Source: Eubacteriaceae bacterium (GTDB lineage: Bacteria; Bacillota; Clostridia; Eubacteriales; Alkalibacteraceae). From it: a stretch of 35,444 bases of DNA. Each line of letters opens with the position of its first letter. The first letter of the stretch is position 1. The stretch covers positions 1-35,444 of the forward strand of contig JAAXUP010000014.1 of NCBI GenBank assembly GCA_013335935.1, read 5' to 3'. The notes below the pieces were generated by a model. It searched no databases, was not told where the DNA came from, and was given only the letters and a program-made list of their open reading frames with translations. Below are positions 9,129-30,991 of this stretch, in pieces. Position numbers and translations under genes: made by a program.

Positions 9129-11480
9129 ATGGAATTGAATTTGACAAATCGAGTGAGTACATTAAAAAACAAAATGCTGGAAGAAGAAAGATATTTATCT
9201 ATCGAGCAGGCTCAAATAATCACTCAAATATACAAAGAAAACGAAGAAAAATCGGTTGCATTGAAAAGAGCACTTTCACTCAAGGCTACATTAGAGAACT
9301 TAGAGATCGATATTCAAAATGAAGAATTGATCGTCGGAAACAGAACGAAAGGGGTAAGGGGAGGAGTAGTATTCCCCGAAAGTGGGATAGGCTGGATCCA
9401 TAAAGAAATCGAGACCATACAAAACCGTCCTCAGGATAAATTCAATGTCCATCCGGAAGATATTCACATTTTCAGAAAATCAATTGAACCTTACTGGAGA
9501 GAGATTTCTCTTGAAGCAGCTATTAAAAAACGATATGGAACTGAAATATCGGAAATAGAAAAAGTGGTCAAAATCAACCAAAAGGACCATGCACAGGGTC
9601 ATATTTGTCCAAACTGCGAGAAATGGCTGAAATTTGGACCTAGCGGAATTTTAGCTGAAGCGAAAATGAAAATAAAAAATGCATCTAAAGAGAAAAAGGA
9701 GTTCTATGAGAGTGTGATCATCGTTATGGAAGGTGTTCAGACCTTCATGCTGAGGTACAGGGACCTGCTCTATGAAAGATCATTAGCGGAATCTGATGAA
9801 GCGCTCAAAAGCAGTATGAAAAAATTGGCTGAAATATGTGAAAAACTATCATTTAGCAAGCCGGAATCATTCCATGAAGCTGTGCAATCGATTTGGTTCC
9901 TATTTGTTGTACTTCAAATGGAATCAAATGCATCTTCGTTTTCTCCAGGAAGAATGGATCAATATCTTCATCAGTATTACAAGAATGATATGGAAAATGG
10001 GAATTTAACCAAACAAGAAGCTCTGGAAATTATCGAATGTGTCTGCATTAAATTTAATCAGATAGTTTATATGAGAAATTCACATAGTGCAAAATTCTTT
10101 GCTGGATTTCCAATTGGTTTTAATATTGTCATTGGAGGTCAGGATGAAAAAGGAAATGACGCCACAAATGAGCTGTCATATTTGTTTTTGACAGGACAGA
10201 AACATCTATTGTTGCCTCAGCCAAATTTGTCAGTAAGGTTGCATAACAATACTCCAGGAGAATTTCTGAAAGAGTGTGTAAGAGTTGTTGCGTTGGGGAA
10301 CGGGATGCCCCAATTTTTCAATGATCAGTCTGTAATGCCGGCACTTCGTGAATTGAATATTGAAGAGAATGATGTTAAAGACTATGCTGTTGTTGGTTGT
10401 GTAGAAATAACAACTCAGGGCAATAACCTTGGGTGGAGCGATGCAGCAATGTTCAATTTGAACAAGGTGCTTGAACTCACTTTAAATCATGGCAAGTGTC
10501 TGATCACAGGGAAGCAAATGGCACCTGACCAGGGAAGTCTGTCAGAATTTGAAACATATGAAGACTTGGAGAAGGCTTTCGAAAGTAATATCAAATATTT
10601 TATAGGGGAAATGATATCAAGTTGTGAAGTCGTCGAAAAGGCACACATGGATTTACTGCCATCTCCGTTCTTGTCTGCTGTCGTTGATGATTGCATGGAA
10701 AAAGGTATTGATATTACATGCGGCGGCGCTAAATATAACCTTTCTGGAATCCAAATGATACAGGTTGCAAATCTTGCGGACAGTCTGGGGGCTATCAAAT
10801 CCTTGGTATTTGACAGAAACAAAATCAGTAGATTCGATATGCTTAATGCACTTCAAAATAATTATGAAGGTAACGAACTTATGAGGGCAATCATATTGAA
10901 TAAAAGCCCTAAGTATGGAAATGACGTAAAATGGATCGACGAGATCGGGGCTAAATGGGCTGAGATATTCAAATCTGAGTTGTCAAACTATAAAAATTAC
11001 AGAGGCGGGAAATACCATACCGGAATGTATACGGTATCGGCTCATGTCCCTATGGGTGAAAATGTGGGAGCCTCGCCAGACGGAAGATACGCGATGTCTC
11101 CCCTTGCAGATGGTGGGATGTCACCGGTTTATGGCAGGGATACGTCGGGGCCAACTGCCGTTTTAAAATCAGTTGCCAGACTGGATAACAACCTGACAAG
11201 CAATGGCGGACTTCTGAACATGAAATTCTTACCGGAATTTTTTAGCAACGAATCAGGTATCGATAAATTTTCCATGTTTCTCAGAGCATTTGTCGATCTG
11301 GAAATTCCACACATACAGTTTAATGTTATAAGAAAAGAAGATTTGATAGCAGCAAAGAAGGATCCGGAAAACTACCGGGGACTTACTGTGCGTGTGGCAG
11401 GTTACACTGCATATTTTACTGAACTAGCGGATGAACTTCAAAATGAGATCATAGCGAGAACTAGCTACGGTGATTTATAG
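9129..11480 (+). CDS. Glycyl radical enzyme, distantly PflD-like, substrate unknown
   Basis: A 783-residue GRE with thiyl cysteine Cys424 and Glu426 in GCVEI, and glycyl radical Gly758 in VRVAGYTAYF. The GCVE signature places it among dehydratase/lyase-type GREs, not pyruvate formate-lyase. Segments such as YTVSAHVPMG, DGRYAMSPLADGGMSP and GPTAVLKSVARLDN resemble E. coli PflD from memory, and PflD has been reported to open 1,5-anhydromannitol-6-phosphate. The loop after the catalytic cysteine (TTQGNNLGWSDAAMFNLNK) differs from what I recall for PflD, so the substrate may differ. The start is ATG 9129 after GAGGTG. The activase gene begins at the very next base, so the two are co-translated. 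The fructose-family PTS downstream suggests a phosphorylated substrate. Confidence 0.85.
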   Translation: MELNLTNRVSTLKNKMLEEERYLSIEQAQIITQIYKENEEKSVALKRALSLKATLENLEIDIQNEELIVGNRTKGVRGGVVFPESGIGWIHKEIETIQNRPQDKFNVHPEDIHIFRKSIEPYWREISLEAAIKKRYGTEISEIEKVVKINQKDHAQGHICPNCEKWLKFGPSGILAEAKMKIKNASKEKKEFYESVIIVMEGVQTFMLRYRDLLYERSLAESDEALKSSMKKLAEICEKLSFSKPESFHEAVQSIWFLFVVLQMESNASSFSPGRMDQYLHQYYKNDMENGNLTKQEALEIIECVCIKFNQIVYMRNSHSAKFFAGFPIGFNIVIGGQDEKGNDATNELSYLFLTGQKHLLLPQPNLSVRLHNNTPGEFLKECVRVVALGNGMPQFFNDQSVMPALRELNIEENDVKDYAVVGCVEITTQGNNLGWSDAAMFNLNKVLELTLNHGKCLITGKQMAPDQGSLSEFETYEDLEKAFESNIKYFIGEMISSCEVVEKAHMDLLPSPFLSAVVDDCMEKGIDITCGGAKYNLSGIQMIQVANLADSLGAIKSLVFDRNKISRFDMLNALQNNYEGNELMRAIILNKSPKYGNDVKWIDEIGAKWAEIFKSELSNYKNYRGGKYHTGMYTVSAHVPMGENVGASPDGRYAMSPLADGGMSPVYGRDTSGPTAVLKSVARLDNNLTSNGGLLNMKFLPEFFSNESGIDKFSMFLRAFVDLEIPHIQFNVIRKEDLIAAKKDPENYRGLTVRVAGYTAYFTELADELQNEIIARTSYGDL

Positions 11481-12392
11481 ATGAAAAAAGCAAGAATATT
11501 TGATATCAGGCGATTTTCTACTCATGACGGGAGCGGGATTCGAACAACGGTTTTCATGAAAGGATGTCCTTTGGATTGTATATGGTGTCATAATCCAGAA
11601 GGAATATCAAGGAATATAAATTTGTTATATTTCAAAAACAAGTGTATGAACTGTCATATCTGCATAGAAAAATGTCCCCGAAAAGCATTGAGCTTAGGCA
11701 GGAACGGGATTTTAATTGATCAATCTGCATGTGATCTATGCGGAATCTGCACAGAAGAATGTCCAGGAAACGCCCTTAATATGGACTGTATGGAATTTAC
11801 TCTTGAGCAGGTTTTGGTGGAAGTTATGAATGATCAACCTTTTTTTAAATATGGCGGCGGGGTAACAATTACCGGTGGAGAGCCTTTGTTGCAAGCTGAT
11901 TTTGTTATTGAATTGTTTAAGGGACTAAAGAGGAAAGGCATTCATACCGCCGTAGAGACCAGCTTGTTTGGATCAAATGAGGATTTGAAAAAAATGTTGC
12001 CATACCTTGATGAAATATTTTGTGATCTCAAATTATTAAGTAGTGAGGATCATTTTAATTACACTGGCGTAAGCAATTTAATCATACTGGAAAACTTGGA
12101 AGCCATTCTTGTTTCTGAAGAAAAGACCAAGGTCATAGTTCGTACTCCGCTTATCCCAGATCATACGGCGAATGAAGAGAATATCACAAGGATATGCAGT
12201 TTTATCACCGGGATTTATCCGGATGTCCAATACGAATTATTAAATTATAATCCGTTAGCAAGTTCGAAATACCACCTGATTGGCAGAGAATATTGCTTTG
12301 AAGATAATCCGAAAATGTATAGTGTAGAAGAAATTGAATATTTCCGATCGGTGGCAATAAAAGCCGGAATCAAGAATATGATTGAGGATTGA
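11481..12392 (+). CDS. Radical-SAM glycyl radical enzyme activase
   Basis: A 303-residue activating enzyme with the SAM-cluster motif CPLDCIWC (Cys29, Cys33, Cys36; the CX3CX2C spacing of GRE activases). Two inserted ferredoxin-type 4Fe-4S sites follow (Cys55/58/61/65 and Cys84/87/90/94), as in PflC, HpdA and CutD but absent from PflA. GGEP-type residues appear in TITGGEPLLQ. It abstracts hydrogen from the radical glycine of its partner using reductively cleaved SAM. The ATG immediately follows the TAG of the GRE gene, so the pairing is secure. Confidence 0.93.
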   Translation: MKKARIFDIRRFSTHDGSGIRTTVFMKGCPLDCIWCHNPEGISRNINLLYFKNKCMNCHICIEKCPRKALSLGRNGILIDQSACDLCGICTEECPGNALNMDCMEFTLEQVLVEVMNDQPFFKYGGGVTITGGEPLLQADFVIELFKGLKRKGIHTAVETSLFGSNEDLKKMLPYLDEIFCDLKLLSSEDHFNYTGVSNLIILENLEAILVSEEKTKVIVRTPLIPDHTANEENITRICSFITGIYPDVQYELLNYNPLASSKYHLIGREYCFEDNPKMYSVEEIEYFRSVAIKAGIKNMIED

Positions 12393-16488: not shown

Positions 16489-16540
16489 AACCTCTATACT
16501 TATGATATAACTATCTTAAATATAGAGGTTATTATTTATT
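16489..16540 (+). terminator. Terminator of the second PTS operon
   Basis: AACCTCTATA (16489-16498) and TATAGAGGTT (16521-16530) form a perfect 10-bp stem with a 22-base loop, followed by ATTATTTATTT. The stem is AT-rich and the tract is broken, so termination may be moderate. Confidence 0.6.
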
Positions 16541-17090
16541 TAAGGTAGGGGGTACAAGGGGGTGCAAATCTCAATCCATAAGCATATTCCGCGTATTAGT
16601 ATCATCATATTGCCCAAACACATGTTGAGACAGTCGTGCTGATAGAGTGCCGAAAGCCATGATATACAGCGGTTGTAGCGTTTTAGGTAACTGAATAGTG
16701 ATCCCGAAATTCCTATTTTTTGTGATGAAAACAGTTGTTTTGCTTAGGGGGGTCGCACTTTTTCGCGAATATAAACAAATGCGCGGAATTCATAGGATTT
16801 CGCGTAATGGTTATGAATTAACCCAAAAGGCAACGATGTGTTTCCATAGTTGGGACAGCATGAAAGTGAATCCTTAACGGCTAACGTCTGCTTAGGTCTG
16901 CAGTTCCGTTACCAGCAAGGAAAAGTAGAGGTCAACCATAACTAGCGAGTTGGCTTATTATGCAAATGAATTTATATACAAAAAATGGGTATATAATTAA
17001 TAATTAGTAAGTCACGGTCATTAATAAAACAAGTTCAGCTTGGAAAGAGTTAACGAAAATCTCGATGAAGTATTTCACGCTATATAGGTT
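16541..17090. other. Non-coding stretch, possible mobile-element debris
   Basis: About 550 bp with no plausible coding frame and higher GC than its surroundings in places. It contains G runs (16548-16563, 16747-16752). An imperfect inverted pair is present, CGAAATTCCTAT (16705-16716) against ATAGGATTTCG (16792-16802), near several TTCGCG/GCGCG motifs. This looks like the leftover end of an insertion element, but I cannot assign a family. Confidence 0.35.
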
Positions 17091-17117
17091 CAAATGGAAA
17101 TGTTGGGAAGTGATGAA

Positions 17118-18371
17118 ATGCAAAAGGTTGAAAAAATTAAAGTCGGAATCGGATTTGCGACTGGGCGGAAGAGTTTTCAAAAGGTATTAAAGTCATACGT
17201 GCATGGGTTGAATCAGAGTAGTTTTGTGAAAAACAATAAAATTGGTTTTAATCTTATTGTCGCATATGATCTTACATATAATAAAACCAAAGCTACAGAT
17301 TACACTAAAATCTCATCGGAAATAGTTGAACAGATTAATAGCAGCAGATTTATTACAAAGATTTCCATAAAGGATGAAATTGACTTTCTAGTTCAAGAAA
17401 CCATTGTTAGCGAGGATGAAGCTCACATGATCTTTGGAAAAGGCTATGCGGCAAGGCGAAATGCGGTGCTCTATAACGCTATAAAGTACAAAATGGATTA
17501 CCTGATTTTTCTTGATGATGACGAATATCCAGTAGCAGTAACTAAAACACATAAAAACGCAGTTTGGGGTGGGCAAAATGTTTTAACCTCTCATCTTAAA
17601 AATATTACCCAGGCTGACATCACCAACGGACATCACTGCGGTTACATATCACCTATTCCATTTCTTGAATTTAGTGATAAAATGACTGAAACAGATTTTC
17701 GATCTTTCATTGAAGCGATAAGCAATGACATCCTAAACTGGGATAATATCAAGGCCGTTATGGAACGTGGTGGAGTAACATATGCCGATACTAAAATACT
17801 GACCACTGATGATGCAATAGAGGTACAGGAAATAAATCGTGCCAAATTTATATCGGGTGCTAATCTATGTATTAATCTTACTGAGCCCAAACGAGTTTTC
17901 CCATTTTACAATCCACCAGGAGCTAGAGGAGAGGATACTTTTTTAAGTACATGCTTAAGTGAACGTAAAGTTCTGCGTGTGCCATGCTATACATTCCATG
18001 ATGGATTTTCTACTTATAATCAACTTCTGGAGGGTGTTCTCCCGATACGACTGAAGTTTATCAAAGCCGATAGTGAAAAGATTACCACACGCTTCTACAG
18101 AGCCTGCTTAGGCTGGATCCGATATAAACCACTCCTGCTCTATATCACACAGCCAGAGTGTTACGAGGAAAAGATTAAAATAATGAGGGAACAGCTTAAC
18201 CGGACATTACCTAAAATCTGTTCGTATTTCGGACAAGCTGAATTTATGAATGTTTTAGCTGAATTGGAAAAGTACCATAAAAGAGTTGAAAAACATCATG
18301 ATGAATTCCTTGAAACAAAACGTATTTGGGCAAATATCATGGAATTCTATGCAAATAATTTGAGTATATAG
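17118..18371 (+). CDS. GT-A-like glycosyltransferase of unknown role
   Basis: A soluble protein of 417 residues from ATG 17118, which has GGGAAG seven bases upstream; an in-frame ATG at 17094 would add eight residues. Features consistent with a GT-A glycosyltransferase are an N-terminal 'GFATGR' beta-alpha start, a DXD-like cluster LIFLDDDEYP, a GHHCGYISP segment, FISGANLCINL, and a later GARGEDTFLS with RVPCYTFHDGF, which could supply the catalytic acid and a metal-binding histidine. There are no membrane helices or signal peptide. It stands alone between apparent mobile-element debris and an IS110 element, with its own terminator, so it may be a transferred cargo gene. The family call is moderate and no substrate can be proposed. 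Confidence 0.55.
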   Translation: MQKVEKIKVGIGFATGRKSFQKVLKSYVHGLNQSSFVKNNKIGFNLIVAYDLTYNKTKATDYTKISSEIVEQINSSRFITKISIKDEIDFLVQETIVSEDEAHMIFGKGYAARRNAVLYNAIKYKMDYLIFLDDDEYPVAVTKTHKNAVWGGQNVLTSHLKNITQADITNGHHCGYISPIPFLEFSDKMTETDFRSFIEAISNDILNWDNIKAVMERGGVTYADTKILTTDDAIEVQEINRAKFISGANLCINLTEPKRVFPFYNPPGARGEDTFLSTCLSERKVLRVPCYTFHDGFSTYNQLLEGVLPIRLKFIKADSEKITTRFYRACLGWIRYKPLLLYITQPECYEEKIKIMREQLNRTLPKICSYFGQAEFMNVLAELEKYHKRVEKHHDEFLETKRIWANIMEFYANNLSI

Positions 18372-18414: not shown

Positions 18415-18605
18415 GAATAAAATGGATATATATACAGCTTAATTTATTTCTATGGGGGTAAAAATATTGTAAGAGTAAATAGTAAAAGAAAGCAATCTGG
18501 TAATATGTCAAGCGATAAATCAAAAGATAGTTTAGCAGAATGAATAAAAAAGTGCATGACAAATAAACCTCGAGATTTCAAAGAAAAAATCAAGGCAATT
18601 TGAAG
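18415..18605. other. AT-rich flank of the IS110 element
   Basis: About 190 bp without a complete gene. Short peptide-like frames after GGGGG (18452-18456) run into stops within 25 codons and may be remnants of a disrupted gene. The right end of the IS110 element should lie here, close to the transposase stop, but IS110 ends lack diagnostic inverted repeats so I cannot place it. Confidence 0.4.
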
Positions 18606-19892
18606 CTATAAATTCGGAGTATGATCTACTCCTTGAGGAACAAAAAGTTGATTTTTGGCCAGCAATCCAAAAACCAAACGGATAAATTTCCGTGATGTAA
18701 GTGCGAGTGCTCTTTTGTGTTGATGGATTTTCACTTCATGGAACTTCTTTTGATAAAAGGCATCATACTCTGGAAGATGACGAACAACACTTCCTGTAGC
18801 TTCTATCAGGTAATAGCGAAGAAACTTGTTACCAGCCTTGCTCATCTTGGTGTCATCAGAATGAAAGTCGCCAGACTGATTTTCATTCCATACAATCCCT
18901 GCATATTTAGCTAGCGCTGAGTGACTGGAAAATGCATGCATACTGCCGATTTCAGCAAGTATACCAGAGGCAAAAACCGGACCGATACCAGGTATGGATT
19001 TCAAGCAGAGGTATTCTGTAGGATTAAGTCCGGAAACTGTTTTTTCAATAGCCTTGTCAATGGCCTTGATTTCAGCCTCGAAAGCTTTTATACAGTTTAA
19101 AGAAGATGCAATTGCGATGGTTAAGGGTTCGTAAAGACACTTGTCTAAACGATATGAATTTCTAGCAGCTGCTTGCAATATGGAAGCTACCTCTTGGGGA
19201 TTGCTGAAGCGATTTTTTCCTTTCTCACAAACGAAAGAAATAAGCTCTTCAATCGATGCTTCAGCGATCTGTTCATTGGAAAGAAAATCGGTTAGAACAG
19301 CAGAAGCCGTAGCGCCATATTTGTTTGAGAAAGGGTGATTGTCATTTGTCAGTGTGGCAAACTCACTGAATTTTAGAAATACATTTGTAAGCATGTAAGT
19401 TTTTTCTCTGGTCAAGCATTCAACTAAATGCAGACGATGTCTGGTTAAGCGCTGCAGAGCCAGAAACTGTGAGCCTCGCCAGGGTTCGCAAGAGATTCTT
19501 CCAACTCGGGCAAAGTCAGCAATGACAAAGGCATCAATGGGATCCTTTTTACCCATGCCAATAAAAGACTTCTTGTAGTTGGCAACCATCTTTGGATTGA
19601 GACAGTAAACATATGTATTATAAGGAGCCAGAAGAGCACAAGAAGATAGAAAATTGGCAATATGAATCCCATAAAAAGAAGTGGACTCTAAAGCAATAAT
19701 AATGCGTGTGAAATGGCTGCCAGCTAGCAAAGCAGAAAGTTTATCAGCGATTTTATCGGCGCCAGGCTGAGAATTAGGAACAGTAAATTCTAAAAGCTTA
19801 TCCTGTTCGAAATTCAAGGTGCAAATTACGTTTTCACGGGCAGATACATCAATGCCAACAAACAAAGTAGATAGATACTCAGATTTTTTCAT
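18606..19892 (-). CDS. IS110-family transposase (DEDD plus serine recombinase)
   Basis: A 428-residue transposase from ATG 19892, which follows AAAGGTGGTGAT; the frame extends 30 codons upstream without a binding site. The N-terminal RuvC-like DEDD domain shows Asp15 (VGIDVS), Glu69 (IALEST), and Asp117 and Asp120 (KKDPIDAF). The C-terminal Transposase_20 domain has the helix-hairpin-helix LKSIPGIGPVFASGIL and a catalytic serine candidate in KMSKAGNKFLRYYL. All catalytic elements and full length are present, so the enzyme appears intact. IS110 enzymes use an RNA transcribed from an element end (bridge RNA) to select donor and target. The large non-coding region is upstream of the gene here, as in the IS110 rather than IS1111 group. 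Confidence 0.93.
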   Translation of the reverse strand: MKKSEYLSTLFVGIDVSARENVICTLNFEQDKLLEFTVPNSQPGADKIADKLSALLAGSHFTRIIIALESTSFYGIHIANFLSSCALLAPYNTYVYCLNPKMVANYKKSFIGMGKKDPIDAFVIADFARVGRISCEPWRGSQFLALQRLTRHRLHLVECLTREKTYMLTNVFLKFSEFATLTNDNHPFSNKYGATASAVLTDFLSNEQIAEASIEELISFVCEKGKNRFSNPQEVASILQAAARNSYRLDKCLYEPLTIAIASSLNCIKAFEAEIKAIDKAIEKTVSGLNPTEYLCLKSIPGIGPVFASGILAEIGSMHAFSSHSALAKYAGIVWNENQSGDFHSDDTKMSKAGNKFLRYYLIEATGSVVRHLPEYDAFYQKKFHEVKIHQHKRALALTSRKFIRLVFGLLAKNQLFVPQGVDHTPNL

Positions 19893-20160
19893 GATATCAC
19901 CACCTTTCATGATAGAGATGAGGAAATTAGAGAAAGAATATCCTAATCTTAAGCACTGACTGAAACCTCGCATAATAAGCATTCAACCAACAGAAATACC
20001 TTGCTGGGGGCTACTGTAGGGGATGCAACATCTGAGTGAGCAGCATTTGATACTTAAGTCAGGGAGCAAGCTTTCTTAGCAATAGCACATAGCTTTGCAA
20101 GGAGTGATAGCTCAAACCTTCGCTAATAACCCTATATGGTTATTGTAGCATTAGGATATT
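19893..20160 (-). ncRNA. IS110 left-end non-coding region, candidate bridge RNA
   Basis: About 265 bp of structured non-coding DNA upstream of the transposase. An 11-bp perfect inverted repeat brackets most of it: AATATCCTAAT (19938-19948) and ATTAGGATATT (20150-20160). Inside lies a strong hairpin (GCTAATAACC 20122-20131 with GGTTATTGTAGC 20138-20149) and several smaller ones. In the IS110 group such left-end sequence encodes the bridge RNA that pairs with donor and target DNA. Exact RNA ends and guide loops cannot be determined here. Confidence 0.5.
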
Positions 20161-20182
20161 ATAAGTAAAAATAAATAAGAAT

Positions 20183-20203
20183 ATAGCTGTGATTATTAGC
20201 TAT
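20183..20203. promoter_or_regulatory. Inverted repeat, candidate TetR operator
   Basis: ATAGCT (20183-20188) and AGCTAT (20198-20203) with a 9-bp spacer lie just upstream of TATACT/TATAAT sequences and about 27 bp before the TetR start. This is a common autoregulatory position. No convincing -35 box was found. Confidence 0.4.
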
Positions 20204-20229
20204 ACTCTTATAATACGAGGAGTGTGTGT

Positions 20230-20883
20230 ATGGCTACCAATAAAAAGGGAGATCTCACGAAGGAACACATCTACCAGACTTCGAAAACCTTGTTCTACAA
20301 AATCGGTTATACAAAGGCAACACTATCGAAGATTTCACATGAGGCATCCGTTCCTATCGGCCTGATCCCTTATCATTTCACCAACAAAGATCATATTGTC
20401 AGCATGATCTATTCCGATTTCATGAGAAGCATAGACGAGTGCATAGAGGCTCAAATGAAAGATGAAATTGACAACAGCATTCTTTTCCATGCTGTCCAGG
20501 AGAGGATCTATTTCCAAATCATTCTTAATGACGAAAACAACCTCCGCTTTTATCACGAATTTCTAAATAAAAAGTCCAACTATCGTATATTGAATTTTCT
20601 TATTGGCGAACGTTATCGACAATACCTGATTGACTTTGAGATTGAAATTGATGAAACAACATTTACCGCGCTGCTCCATGCGGATTTTGGAGCCAGACGA
20701 GAATTTTTCTTATATTATATGAAAGATCTGAATATTATGGACATTCAGGATGCCGTTTCATTCCTTCATGGAATCGTCCCCCGTCTGCTGAAAATCGATC
20801 AAAAAAGAGTGGATGAAATCCTGGAAAAATCTTTTGAAATTTACACAAGGATAGATTGCAGAGATCTTTGTTTTTTAATTTGA
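20230..20883 (+). CDS. TetR-family transcriptional regulator
   Basis: A 217-residue protein with an N-terminal TetR HTH (KTLFYKIGYTKATLSKISHEASVPIGLIPYHFTNKDHIVSMIY, broken here only by its turn, about residues 19-60) and an unassigned all-helical ligand domain. ATG 20230 is preferred over the in-frame GTG at 20224, since AGGAG at 20218-20222 leaves seven bases to the ATG but only one to the GTG. The gene is alone on its strand, between the IS110 element and the met transporter, and its target is not evident. The inverted repeat upstream may be its own operator. Confidence 0.85.
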   Translation: MATNKKGDLTKEHIYQTSKTLFYKIGYTKATLSKISHEASVPIGLIPYHFTNKDHIVSMIYSDFMRSIDECIEAQMKDEIDNSILFHAVQERIYFQIILNDENNLRFYHEFLNKKSNYRILNFLIGERYRQYLIDFEIEIDETTFTALLHADFGARREFFLYYMKDLNIMDIQDAVSFLHGIVPRLLKIDQKRVDEILEKSFEIYTRIDCRDLCFLI

Positions 20884-29583: not shown

Positions 29584-29661
29584 TTAGAATGGCAGATCAT
29601 CATCATCAAGTGGTTCAAAATCCGATATATCCTCTTGTTGCTCTGGCCCTTTTTCGTCCGT
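29584..29661 (-). pseudogene. C-terminal tail of a phage single-stranded DNA-binding protein
   Basis: Minus-strand frame of 25 residues ending DFEPLDDDDLPF then TAA. The acidic tip DDDLPF at the stop codon is the diagnostic SSB tail that recruits replication and repair partners. The OB-fold part is gone; a stop codon and unrelated integrase sequence lie directly upstream, so this is a deletion junction within a prophage remnant. Confidence 0.75.
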
Positions 29662-29670
29662 TCATATCTG

Positions 29671-30511
29671 ACCGGAGAATCAAGATTCAGATTCTTGATT
29701 ACATCACAGCCGGATGCATCAGGAAAAAGTCATCACCAGATTTTGGGACGAACAAAATCTTGAGCAAATTCTTTGGGTACTGCGTGCAAGAATGCTATAT
29801 CAAACGGAATCCATATGCCGGAATCAAGCTTGCTGCTTATAAGGAAGTTGATGATGAAGTCAGGGATGAAGGAGCGGTTGAGACGTTCACAGAGGACGAA
29901 ATTAACAGATACTCAAACACATTGATAAGAACGTCAAGTTGCGTACTTTAGTTAAATTTGCTCTTTCTACGGGCTTAAGGCAAGGAGAGCTACTTGCATT
30001 AAGCGTTGATGATATAGATGATATGACCGTATCCGTGAATAAAAGGGTTAAAATGGTTAAAATATTTTCTTCACGAAAAGAATTCACATATGAATTCCAG
30101 ACATCTGCCCCTAAAACGGAAAGCTCTATCCGGAAAGTACCAATACCTTCCTGGCTATTGGCAGATCTTAAAGAACTTGAAAAACTAAGACATCTGGAAA
30201 AGCTAAAAACAGGGGAAGCATATCATGATATCGAGTTTTTATTTCCTTCCGAGGTTAGAACAACGCTGAATGCAAGAAATCTTCTGCGCTCCTGGCAACG
30301 GATCTTCGAGACAATCTACGTAACATATAAGAAGTTTCACGTGCTGAGACACACTTACGTTACGCTGCTACTTAAAAAAGGTACGCCCCTCTTGACCGTT
30401 TCGCGGCTCCTGGGACAAACCTCTATTAAAACTACACAAATCTAAACTCACGTCGTAGAAGAAAGCAAGAAAAACGAAGTAGAAAAACTTAACGAAATAC
30501 TTAGTGTTTAA
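29671..30511 (+). pseudogene. Tyrosine recombinase (integrase) pseudogene
   Basis: Two plus-strand frames form one phage integrase. Frame one holds the end of the core-binding domain (NKILSKFFGYCVQECYIKRNP ... EDEINRYSN). A lost base near 29920 shifts to frame two: KNVKLRTLVKFALSTGLRQGEL (catalytic Arg I), then FHVLRHTYVTLLL (His-x-x-Arg), then SIKTTQI. At 30443-30445 the codon expected to encode the nucleophilic Tyr (QI-Y-THVV) is TAA, after which the family tail THVVEESKKNEVEKLNEIL continues to 30511. The N-terminal arm-binding domain is missing. The gene ends 66 bp before a tRNA-derived repeat, the expected place for an integrase. Confidence 0.88.
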
Positions 30512-30915: not shown

Positions 30916-30991
30916 TGGTGATCCCGGCTGGACTTGAACCAGTGACCTCTACCGTGTCAGGGTAGCGCTCTCCCAGCTGAGCTACGAGATC
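30916..30991 (-). tRNA. trnV: tRNA-Val (anticodon GAC)
   Basis: A 76-nt tRNA including an encoded CCA. The acceptor stem pairs GATCTCG with CGGGATC (one G-U), the D arm has AGCTCAGCTGGGAGAGC, the anticodon stem CTACC/GGTAG closes the loop CTGACAC with anticodon GAC, and the T arm has GGTTCAAGTCC. It reads GUC and GUU valine codons. Its 3' half is repeated at 30578-30626, so it served as an integration site but remains intact. Confidence 0.95.

Follow-up and report, generated by a model that had tools for sequence, protein, structure and literature searches.

An IS110-group element at the start of a TetR-type gene

The window, by which we mean the whole 35,444-nucleotide stretch of DNA that was analysed (contig JAAXUP010000014.1, from a Eubacteriaceae bacterium), carries an IS110-group insertion sequence at the start of a gene for a TetR-type regulator. 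The features of this locus are listed here with the basis for each in brackets; in these and later sequences, a slash marks an edge of the core.

18491..20219, minus strand: complete IS110-group element of 1,729 bp, both CT cores included (ends common to other copies, core, empty site of a relative)
18491..18492, minus strand: right core CT (ends of copies, junction register)
18506..18511, minus strand: TTGACA, -35 half of the predicted junction promoter (sequence)
18606..19892, minus strand: DEDD/serine recombinase (transposase), 428 aa (Pfam, NCBIfam, residues D15, E69, D117, D120, S340)
19937..20160, minus strand: predicted bridge RNA domain, 223 nt, closed by an 11-bp repeat (P1, 20150-20160 with 19937-19947) (covariation, model R1)
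19967..19979, minus strand: putative right donor guide CTTATTATGCGAG, against the left end (reverse complement CTTATAATACGAG) (by eye only; the left ends are too alike)
20029..20035, minus strand: putative left donor guide TCAGATG, against the right-end donor CCAGATT (5/7)
20071..20079, minus strand: putative right target guide CTAAGAAAG, complementary to CTTTCTT in the right flank (7 nt, counting the core)
20100..20110, minus strand: putative left target guide CTATCACTCCT, whose CACTCCT equals the left target CACTC/CT (loop reading and permutation)
20177..20209, minus strand: 12-bp 5' stem-loop in the predicted RNA (z -4.8; same place in 5 relatives)
20210..20215, minus strand: TATTAT, -10 half of the predicted junction promoter (sequence)
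20218..20219, minus strand: left core CT, which is AG on the plus strand, within the Shine-Dalgarno sequence of the TetR-type gene (left-flank pattern, junction promoter)
20218..20232, plus strand: AG-GAG-N7-ATG, Shine-Dalgarno sequence and start of the interrupted gene, which keeps AGGAG (sequence)
20230..20883, plus strand: TetR-type regulator with an interrupted 5' leader (Pfam TetR_N, 25.7 bits, cut-off 24)

Other copies of the element fix its ends, as the earlier note had hoped. In its own genome (G000), this is the only full copy; besides it, there is a right end of 116 bp that lies at the edge of contig C118. The same-family genome G001 has five left ends that are nearly identical and five right ends at contig edges, along with one older left end and a 26-bp remnant. 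The right end is common to the C118 and G001 copies, which set it at 18491; the left end is common to the G001 copies, which place it within a few bases of 20219. The earlier note's reading of an intact IS110 element holds, but its limits (18560-20160) do not: judging from the ends in other copies and the position of the core, they fall short of the actual ones by 69 bp at the right end and 59 bp at the left end. We found no relative of the element in the viral contigs that we scanned.

The recombinase scores 97.8 bits against DEDD_Tnp_IS110 and 81.6 bits against Transposase_20 in Pfam, and 214.5 bits against the NCBIfam IS110 model (cut-off 140). It has both a DEDD RuvC-like domain and a Transposase_20 domain with a conserved serine, as expected for the IS110 family. 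The DEDD residues and the serine motif reported by the earlier note are indeed present (D15, E69, D117, D120, and S340). All five align opposite identical residues in ISCro4, and from established knowledge of the family, we take them to be the catalytic residues. An alternative start at 19982 would give a 458-aa open reading frame, which overlaps the predicted RNA; from the sequence, we prefer the start at 19892. The best solved structures by sequence are the transposases of ISCro4 (PDB 9t56, E = 2.5e-08) and IS621 (8wt6, E = 3.7e-08). Both are distant, with best stretches of 95 and 142 of the 428 residues respectively, and the IS621 chain has 328 residues instead of 428 (8wt6). At E = 1e-40, the recombinase is present in 21 of 391 genomes of the class.

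The non-coding ends of the element are of 327 bp (left) and 115 bp (right), and there is no plus-strand open reading frame of at least 80 aa within 18491-20219. The same recombinase family also includes the IS1111 group, whose guide RNA lies downstream, but IS1111 elements have a long right end, and here it is the left end that is long. We also searched for inverted repeats of at least 10 bp between the two ends and found none, while the subterminal repeats of IS1111 elements are of 7-17 bp. We consider membership in the IS1111 group to be extremely improbable. Separately, a 10-bp stretch of the transposase gene (19615-19624) matches the left end (20207-20216) perfectly in inverted orientation (GTATTATAAG), which is likely due to chance.

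The core, the joined ends, and the empty sites of a relative

If the ends are joined at the CT core, they read TTGACA-TATTACCAGATTG-CT-CG-TATTAT, which is a sigma-70-like promoter with a 17-bp spacer. This predicted promoter would form anew when the right end meets the left, as is characteristic of the IS110 group; a junction promoter of this kind is described for IS621 (PMC11208160). The same register, TTGAC(A/T) and an AT-rich hexamer 17 bp apart, appears in all 23 elements that we compared, but this is a description and not a test, because the anchors were chosen in that register. These 23 elements, which are also used for the duplex energies below, exclude L060, L040, L059, and the repeat copies L117 and L119-L122; in the register used, L060 has a junction spacer of 15 bp. 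We also considered a core at 20222-20221, where similarity between copies ends. We rejected it: it gives weak Shine-Dalgarno strings and a 20-bp spacer, as against fuller motifs and a spacer of 17 bp.

A related element (L044), whose occupied site reads CTC/CT-element-CT/TTTTTAAT, can be compared with four related sites that lack the element (L099, L101, L102, and L103). The left flank aligns with these sites as far as the base that immediately precedes the core, which fixes the left junction of L044 to the base. The empty sites continue with CC-TTTT (CC, not CT), and the preceding triplet is CTC in three of them and TTC in the fourth. On the right, homology returns 8-42 nt past the core with a length difference of 4-5 nt, so the right junction is known only to within a few bases. 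Apart from that difference to the right of the core, the empty sites show no target duplication, and there is probably none beyond the core for the copy in the window either. Elements of the IS110 family lack terminal inverted repeats and any target duplication beyond the core, and on these results, with end-to-end repeats of at least 10 bp searched for, the window element agrees with this.

For the window copy itself we found no empty site; its TetR-type gene gave partial matches of 68-93%. Among the genomes of the family, the flank of L025 matches only G001 itself, besides element ends and a 40-bp piece in G005. There was no empty site for L041, whose genus is represented by one genome.

A predicted bridge RNA in the left end

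The left end contains a predicted RNA domain closed by the 11-bp repeat. The earlier note had described this repeat as perfect, spanning 19938-20160. All 11 of 11 positions do pair, but the span was off by one base, as the arms lie at 19937-19947 and 20150-20160. It had also allowed for the repeat lying outside the insertion sequence, and the repeat falls within it. An 11-bp repeat in two copies could arise by chance alone; the arms covary across eight aligned relatives, which counts against this. In the end-to-end alignment of these eight elements, 58 predicted pairs are kept, and 15 of the 58 have changed on both sides. Shuffled alignments gave a mean of 4.9 such changes (none of 500 reached 15) and slid versions gave 3-4, although some lean is built into this count because the structure was derived from the same alignment.

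Folded as a single sequence, the 223-nt domain of the window is modestly more stable than shuffles (z = -2.29, with 5 of 200 shuffles equally stable). The 5' hairpin is strong in all six elements that were folded (z from -4.8 to -5.9), and its stem sequences differ among them. We set aside the idea that this hairpin is a terminator and read it, provisionally, as RNA structure, because it is at the start of the predicted transcript.

No Rfam family of bridge RNAs matched the region at the gathering threshold or at E up to 5; Rfam may not hold such families. A covariance model built from the eight relatives (R1) does find the RNA elsewhere: in 8 of 391 genomes of the class, 5 of them strongly (the genomes used for building are included), and in 7 of the 28 genomes of the family of G068, 4 of them strongly. 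So, of the covariance search that the earlier note had proposed, the Rfam part found nothing and the purpose-built model identified further genomes. With the repeat inside the element and guide stretches in the predicted loops (see below), these results support its bridge-RNA reading. The element has a long non-coding left end with a conserved, predicted RNA structure, as the IS110 group does. Bridge RNAs are predicted for 85.7% of IS110-group elements (PMC11208160), so an RNA is to be expected here. In three other elements (L074, L049, and L081), the left end is longer than usual through extra sequence, and the left target guide is 308, 250, and 389 nt from the core, respectively, instead of the usual ~110-160 nt.

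Putative guides that track the targets and the ends

Within the domain, the putative guides are in the order left target, hairpin, right target, left donor, hairpin, and right donor. The loops complementary to both element ends and both flanks that the earlier note had suggested looking for can be identified. In the window, the two target guides match their own flanks by 7 nt (CACTCCT) and 7 nt (CTTTCTT), core included. Loops predicted to be complementary to target and donor on opposite strands are a feature of the IS110 group, and this element has them.

If these are guides, then they should fit their own targets better than those of other elements. The left target guide has a mean run of 4.57 nt with its own target and 2.32 nt with swapped targets (n = 22). 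At positions -4 to -7, beyond the shared CTC, the values are 2.27 and 1.27. For the right target guide, the runs are 4.13 and 2.79 (n = 23). The left donor guide matches 5.81 of 7 positions versus 3.38 (n = 21), or 6.12 versus 3.49 if close relatives are collapsed (n = 16). In each of these five comparisons, none of 20,000 permutations did as well; the permutations ignore relatedness. Guide columns came from the alignment in close relatives and were placed by eye at a conserved motif in the others, so a bias in the fit is possible for the latter.

Some elements fit poorly: L040, L059, and L045 (0), L025 (1), and L050 (2) for the left guide, and L047 (0) for the right guide, with fits of 2-3 nt in nine other rows. 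Because the candidate in L044 ends in CG rather than CT, so that only CTC could match, this element was omitted from the left-guide test. L014, L042, L073, and L051 have no right end and are absent from the right-guide test. In Enterococcus, the left guide varies with the target; E. faecium and E. hirae have TTTCCTCCT, for example, and E. raffinosus has TGCCCTCCT.

The structured left end might instead be a leader that regulates translation of the transposase, as the domain stops ~45 nt before the transposase start. A leader would leave unexplained why the guides track flanks and ends in 16-23 elements, and we think that this role is very unlikely. We return to the bridge RNA below.

The target is a Shine-Dalgarno sequence near a start codon

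The left flank of the window element reads CAT-ACACACA-CTC/CT. On the opposite strand, this is AGGAG-TGTGTGT-ATG, the start of the TetR-type gene. The insertion site is AAAGGAG-N7-ATG, with the element within the Shine-Dalgarno sequence, and the left target guide resembles the anti-Shine-Dalgarno tail of 16S rRNA.

This arrangement is common among related elements. Of 27 left flanks, 22 have an ATG (CAT as read from the element) at a distance of 9-12 nt from the core, and in 14 of these it is at exactly 10 nt. (One G001 element contributes five insertions to the 27, and two copies share one flank.) In the DNA that we collected, which includes the elements and overlapping loci, an ATG is found at this distance from 7.5% of all positions and from 17.7% of CTC/CT-like positions. 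Read outward from the ATG, the frame stays open for 38 codons or more in 20 of the 22 cases; the other two are L045 (2 codons) and L050 (24 codons). The five flanks with no ATG at 9-12 nt are L015, L040, L059, L080, and L081, and three of these have TTG or GTG at 11 nt, with frames of 5, 12, and 33 codons. The 27 leave out L043, L046, L048, L053, and L079, which lack a recognisable left end; the fragments L054-L058, L061, and L062 and the remnants L018, L019, L026, L036, and L037 were not counted.

We also looked at plasmid copies with annotated genes. These IS110-family elements from Enterococcus, Priestia, Bacillus, Cytobacillus, and Alicyclobacillus are ~37-45% identical to the window element in protein sequence and have similar ends, and they differ in their left target guides and donor sequences. 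Only two of the first five fit by annotation (L078 and L082). A later set of 14 copies, none of them used earlier, was chosen by hand from 391 plasmid records at E of 1e-70 or better; one of these (L125) has no left end at the expected place, and in all 13 others, there is an annotated start codon 9-12 nt from the core (12 ATG and 1 GTG). The 13 copies represent nine distinct sites, eight of them new, as five share a common flank and L119 is at the site of L082. Overall, an annotated start codon is at this distance in 15 of 19 plasmid copies; L079, L080, L081, and L125 do not fit by annotation.

A selective explanation for this pattern is that the guide specifies a CTCCT-like string only and that selection removes insertions at other places, so that the association with ribosome-binding sites reflects survivorship. 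In the collected DNA, only 28 of 101 CTCCTTT sites have an ATG at 9-12 nt, versus the 22 of 27 element sites, so the central letters of the guide alone do not account for the excess. On the other hand, the match between guide and target extends beyond those letters, and selection and targeting may work together. We regard survivorship as the whole explanation as rather unlikely, though it is the most serious of the alternatives.

It is also conceivable, but highly unlikely, that the CTC beside the left core belongs to the element rather than to the target, so that the insertion sequence carries part of the Shine-Dalgarno pattern with it. CTC is the commonest triplet at this position. However, the triplet varies by copy (CCC, TTC, TAC, CGC, and CTT are also seen) and does so several times together with the guide (L039, L047, and L078); CTC or TTC is already present in the empty sites described above, where there is no element; and the start codon is outside CTC in any case.

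Our interpretation is that the target is the Shine-Dalgarno sequence itself. Judging from these flanks and guides, the element seems to belong to a wider set in Clostridia and Bacilli that is found in ribosome-binding sites. The element's own genome contains CAT-N7-CTCCTTT at 29 sites (versus 9 for the reversed pattern), so suitable targets are not rare. Four short or diverged left-end remnants (L037, L026, L018, and L019) have a CAT ~10-11 nt from the core, by eye, and L036 has CAC; this suggests that remnants in related genomes are old insertions at translation starts. The copies L040 and L059 from G282 have the same odd left flank, with no nearby start codon and no guide match, and there may be a second repeat or an assembly join at this flank.

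Proposed cycle and the effect on the interrupted gene

We conclude that this is very probably an intact IS110-group insertion sequence with a bridge RNA that guides insertion into Shine-Dalgarno sequences. This covers the anatomy, the ends, the guide-target matching, and the target class, which can be read from the DNA, and also a cycle whose transcription, circle, catalysis, and effect on the downstream gene we infer. The recombinase would excise the element as a circle, and the joined ends would form a promoter, with the -35 from the right end and the -10 from the left end. This promoter would transcribe the left end to give a bridge RNA with the 5' stem-loop and the domain closed by the 11-bp stem. 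Its two pairs of guides would bind the donor (the element's own ends) and the target. Like the anti-Shine-Dalgarno tail of 16S rRNA, the left target guide (CACTCCT) would pair with the AGGAG strand; the right guide would pair with the bases immediately upstream. Recombination at the core, CT (or AG when read in the direction of the gene), would then place the element inside AAAGGAG-N7-ATG, and the AGGAG that is retained by the gene could continue to bind the ribosome.

The gene retains AGGAG because the motif is cut on its 5' side. We predicted duplex energies with the anti-Shine-Dalgarno sequence, using the known sequence of the 16S tail. Across 23 elements, the mean is -9.9 kcal/mol for empty sites and -10.1 kcal/mol for occupied ones, and 11 of the 23 are at least as strong after insertion. 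In the window, the predicted pairing weakens, from -15.8 to -11.1 kcal/mol. On average, then, insertion would leave the pairing unchanged, mostly through the position of the cut and not through the left end itself. We found no outward promoter: there was no plus-strand match in the left end, and the region as a whole had 5 matches, versus 5.1 in shuffles. The TetR-type gene may therefore rely on read-through from its old promoter, through the whole element.

Relation to other IS110 elements

The element is similar to IS621 as described in PMC11208160, in that both have a DEDD/serine recombinase, an RNA in a long left end, a promoter at the joined ends, and a CT core. In both, the left target guide corresponds to the bottom strand and the right guide to the top strand (PMC11208160). 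They differ in their targets, as IS621 inserts in REP sequences and the window element in a Shine-Dalgarno sequence, and in the RNA, which is ~177 nt in IS621 (PMC11208160); here, we predict a 223-nt domain with a long-range 11-bp closing stem, plus a 5' stem-loop. Extended Data Fig. 5a of that paper covers 16 guides with target motifs and may include Shine-Dalgarno targets. Searches of open-access full text, judged by titles and the openings of abstracts, gave no paper that ties a bridge or seek RNA guide to the Shine-Dalgarno sequence.

IS900 reportedly targets translation initiation signals, going by the title of a 1997 paper by Doran. The target motif of IS900, from Mycobacterium avium subsp. 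paratuberculosis, is given as CATGNNNNNNTCTCCTT in PMC8141618. This motif consists of a start codon and an anti-Shine-Dalgarno string, with spacing as in the window element, and both elements are in the IS110 family. The joined flanks in the window, CAT-N7-CTC/CT/TTC, fit an IS900-like target of CAT-N7/8-CTCCTT (motif from PMC8141618). Given the IS900 motif and the 1997 title, this target class has a precedent. One difference is that IS900 carries the antisense hed open reading frame, which has no equivalent of at least 80 aa on the plus strand of the window element. Also, with the ends of IS900 as they are said to lie, the ribosome-binding site falls on the side of the element, whereas in the window, AGGAG stays with the host gene.

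We think it likely that this lineage has turned its target guide into a mimic of the 16S anti-Shine-Dalgarno tail, so that the code for translation starts is also the code for insertion. As guides drift, they would stay complementary to Shine-Dalgarno sequences; a cut at the 5' edge would preserve the ribosome-binding site; and the same rule would explain IS900. The lineage in Clostridia and Bacilli appears to be a little-described one of a known kind of element, with a target rule that is unusual but, on the evidence of the flanks and guides, well supported. It has long been observed that some IS110 elements insert at translation starts; this proposal would give a concrete RNA-based reason for that, and it is directly testable. 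A target that is present at very many genes, with damage limited by the position of the cut, is a plausible route to tolerated sites. The variety of natural guides and ends, with their matched targets, also provides comparative material on how pairing works in bridge recombinases beyond the IS621 branch.

Other features of the window

Beside the right end of the element is a 425-aa open reading frame (17094-18371) with no match in Pfam or NCBIfam. It has relatives at the DNA level in its own genome, in contigs C64 (86%) and C88 (72%), so it represents a multicopy family. The intergenic region at 16489-16858 is a dispersed repeat, with pieces that are 82-86% similar in contigs C163, C188, C184, and C64 of the same genome. 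Further away, two large open reading frames (271-2679 and 9129-11480) presumably encode glycyl-radical enzymes, by resemblance, and we take 11481-12392 to be activase-like and the genes between the two large frames to be PTS-like. Two overlapping short open reading frames at 29589-30445, near a tRNA-Val gene (30916-30991), look by eye like a frame-broken tyrosine integrase, and this region is perhaps a decayed island.
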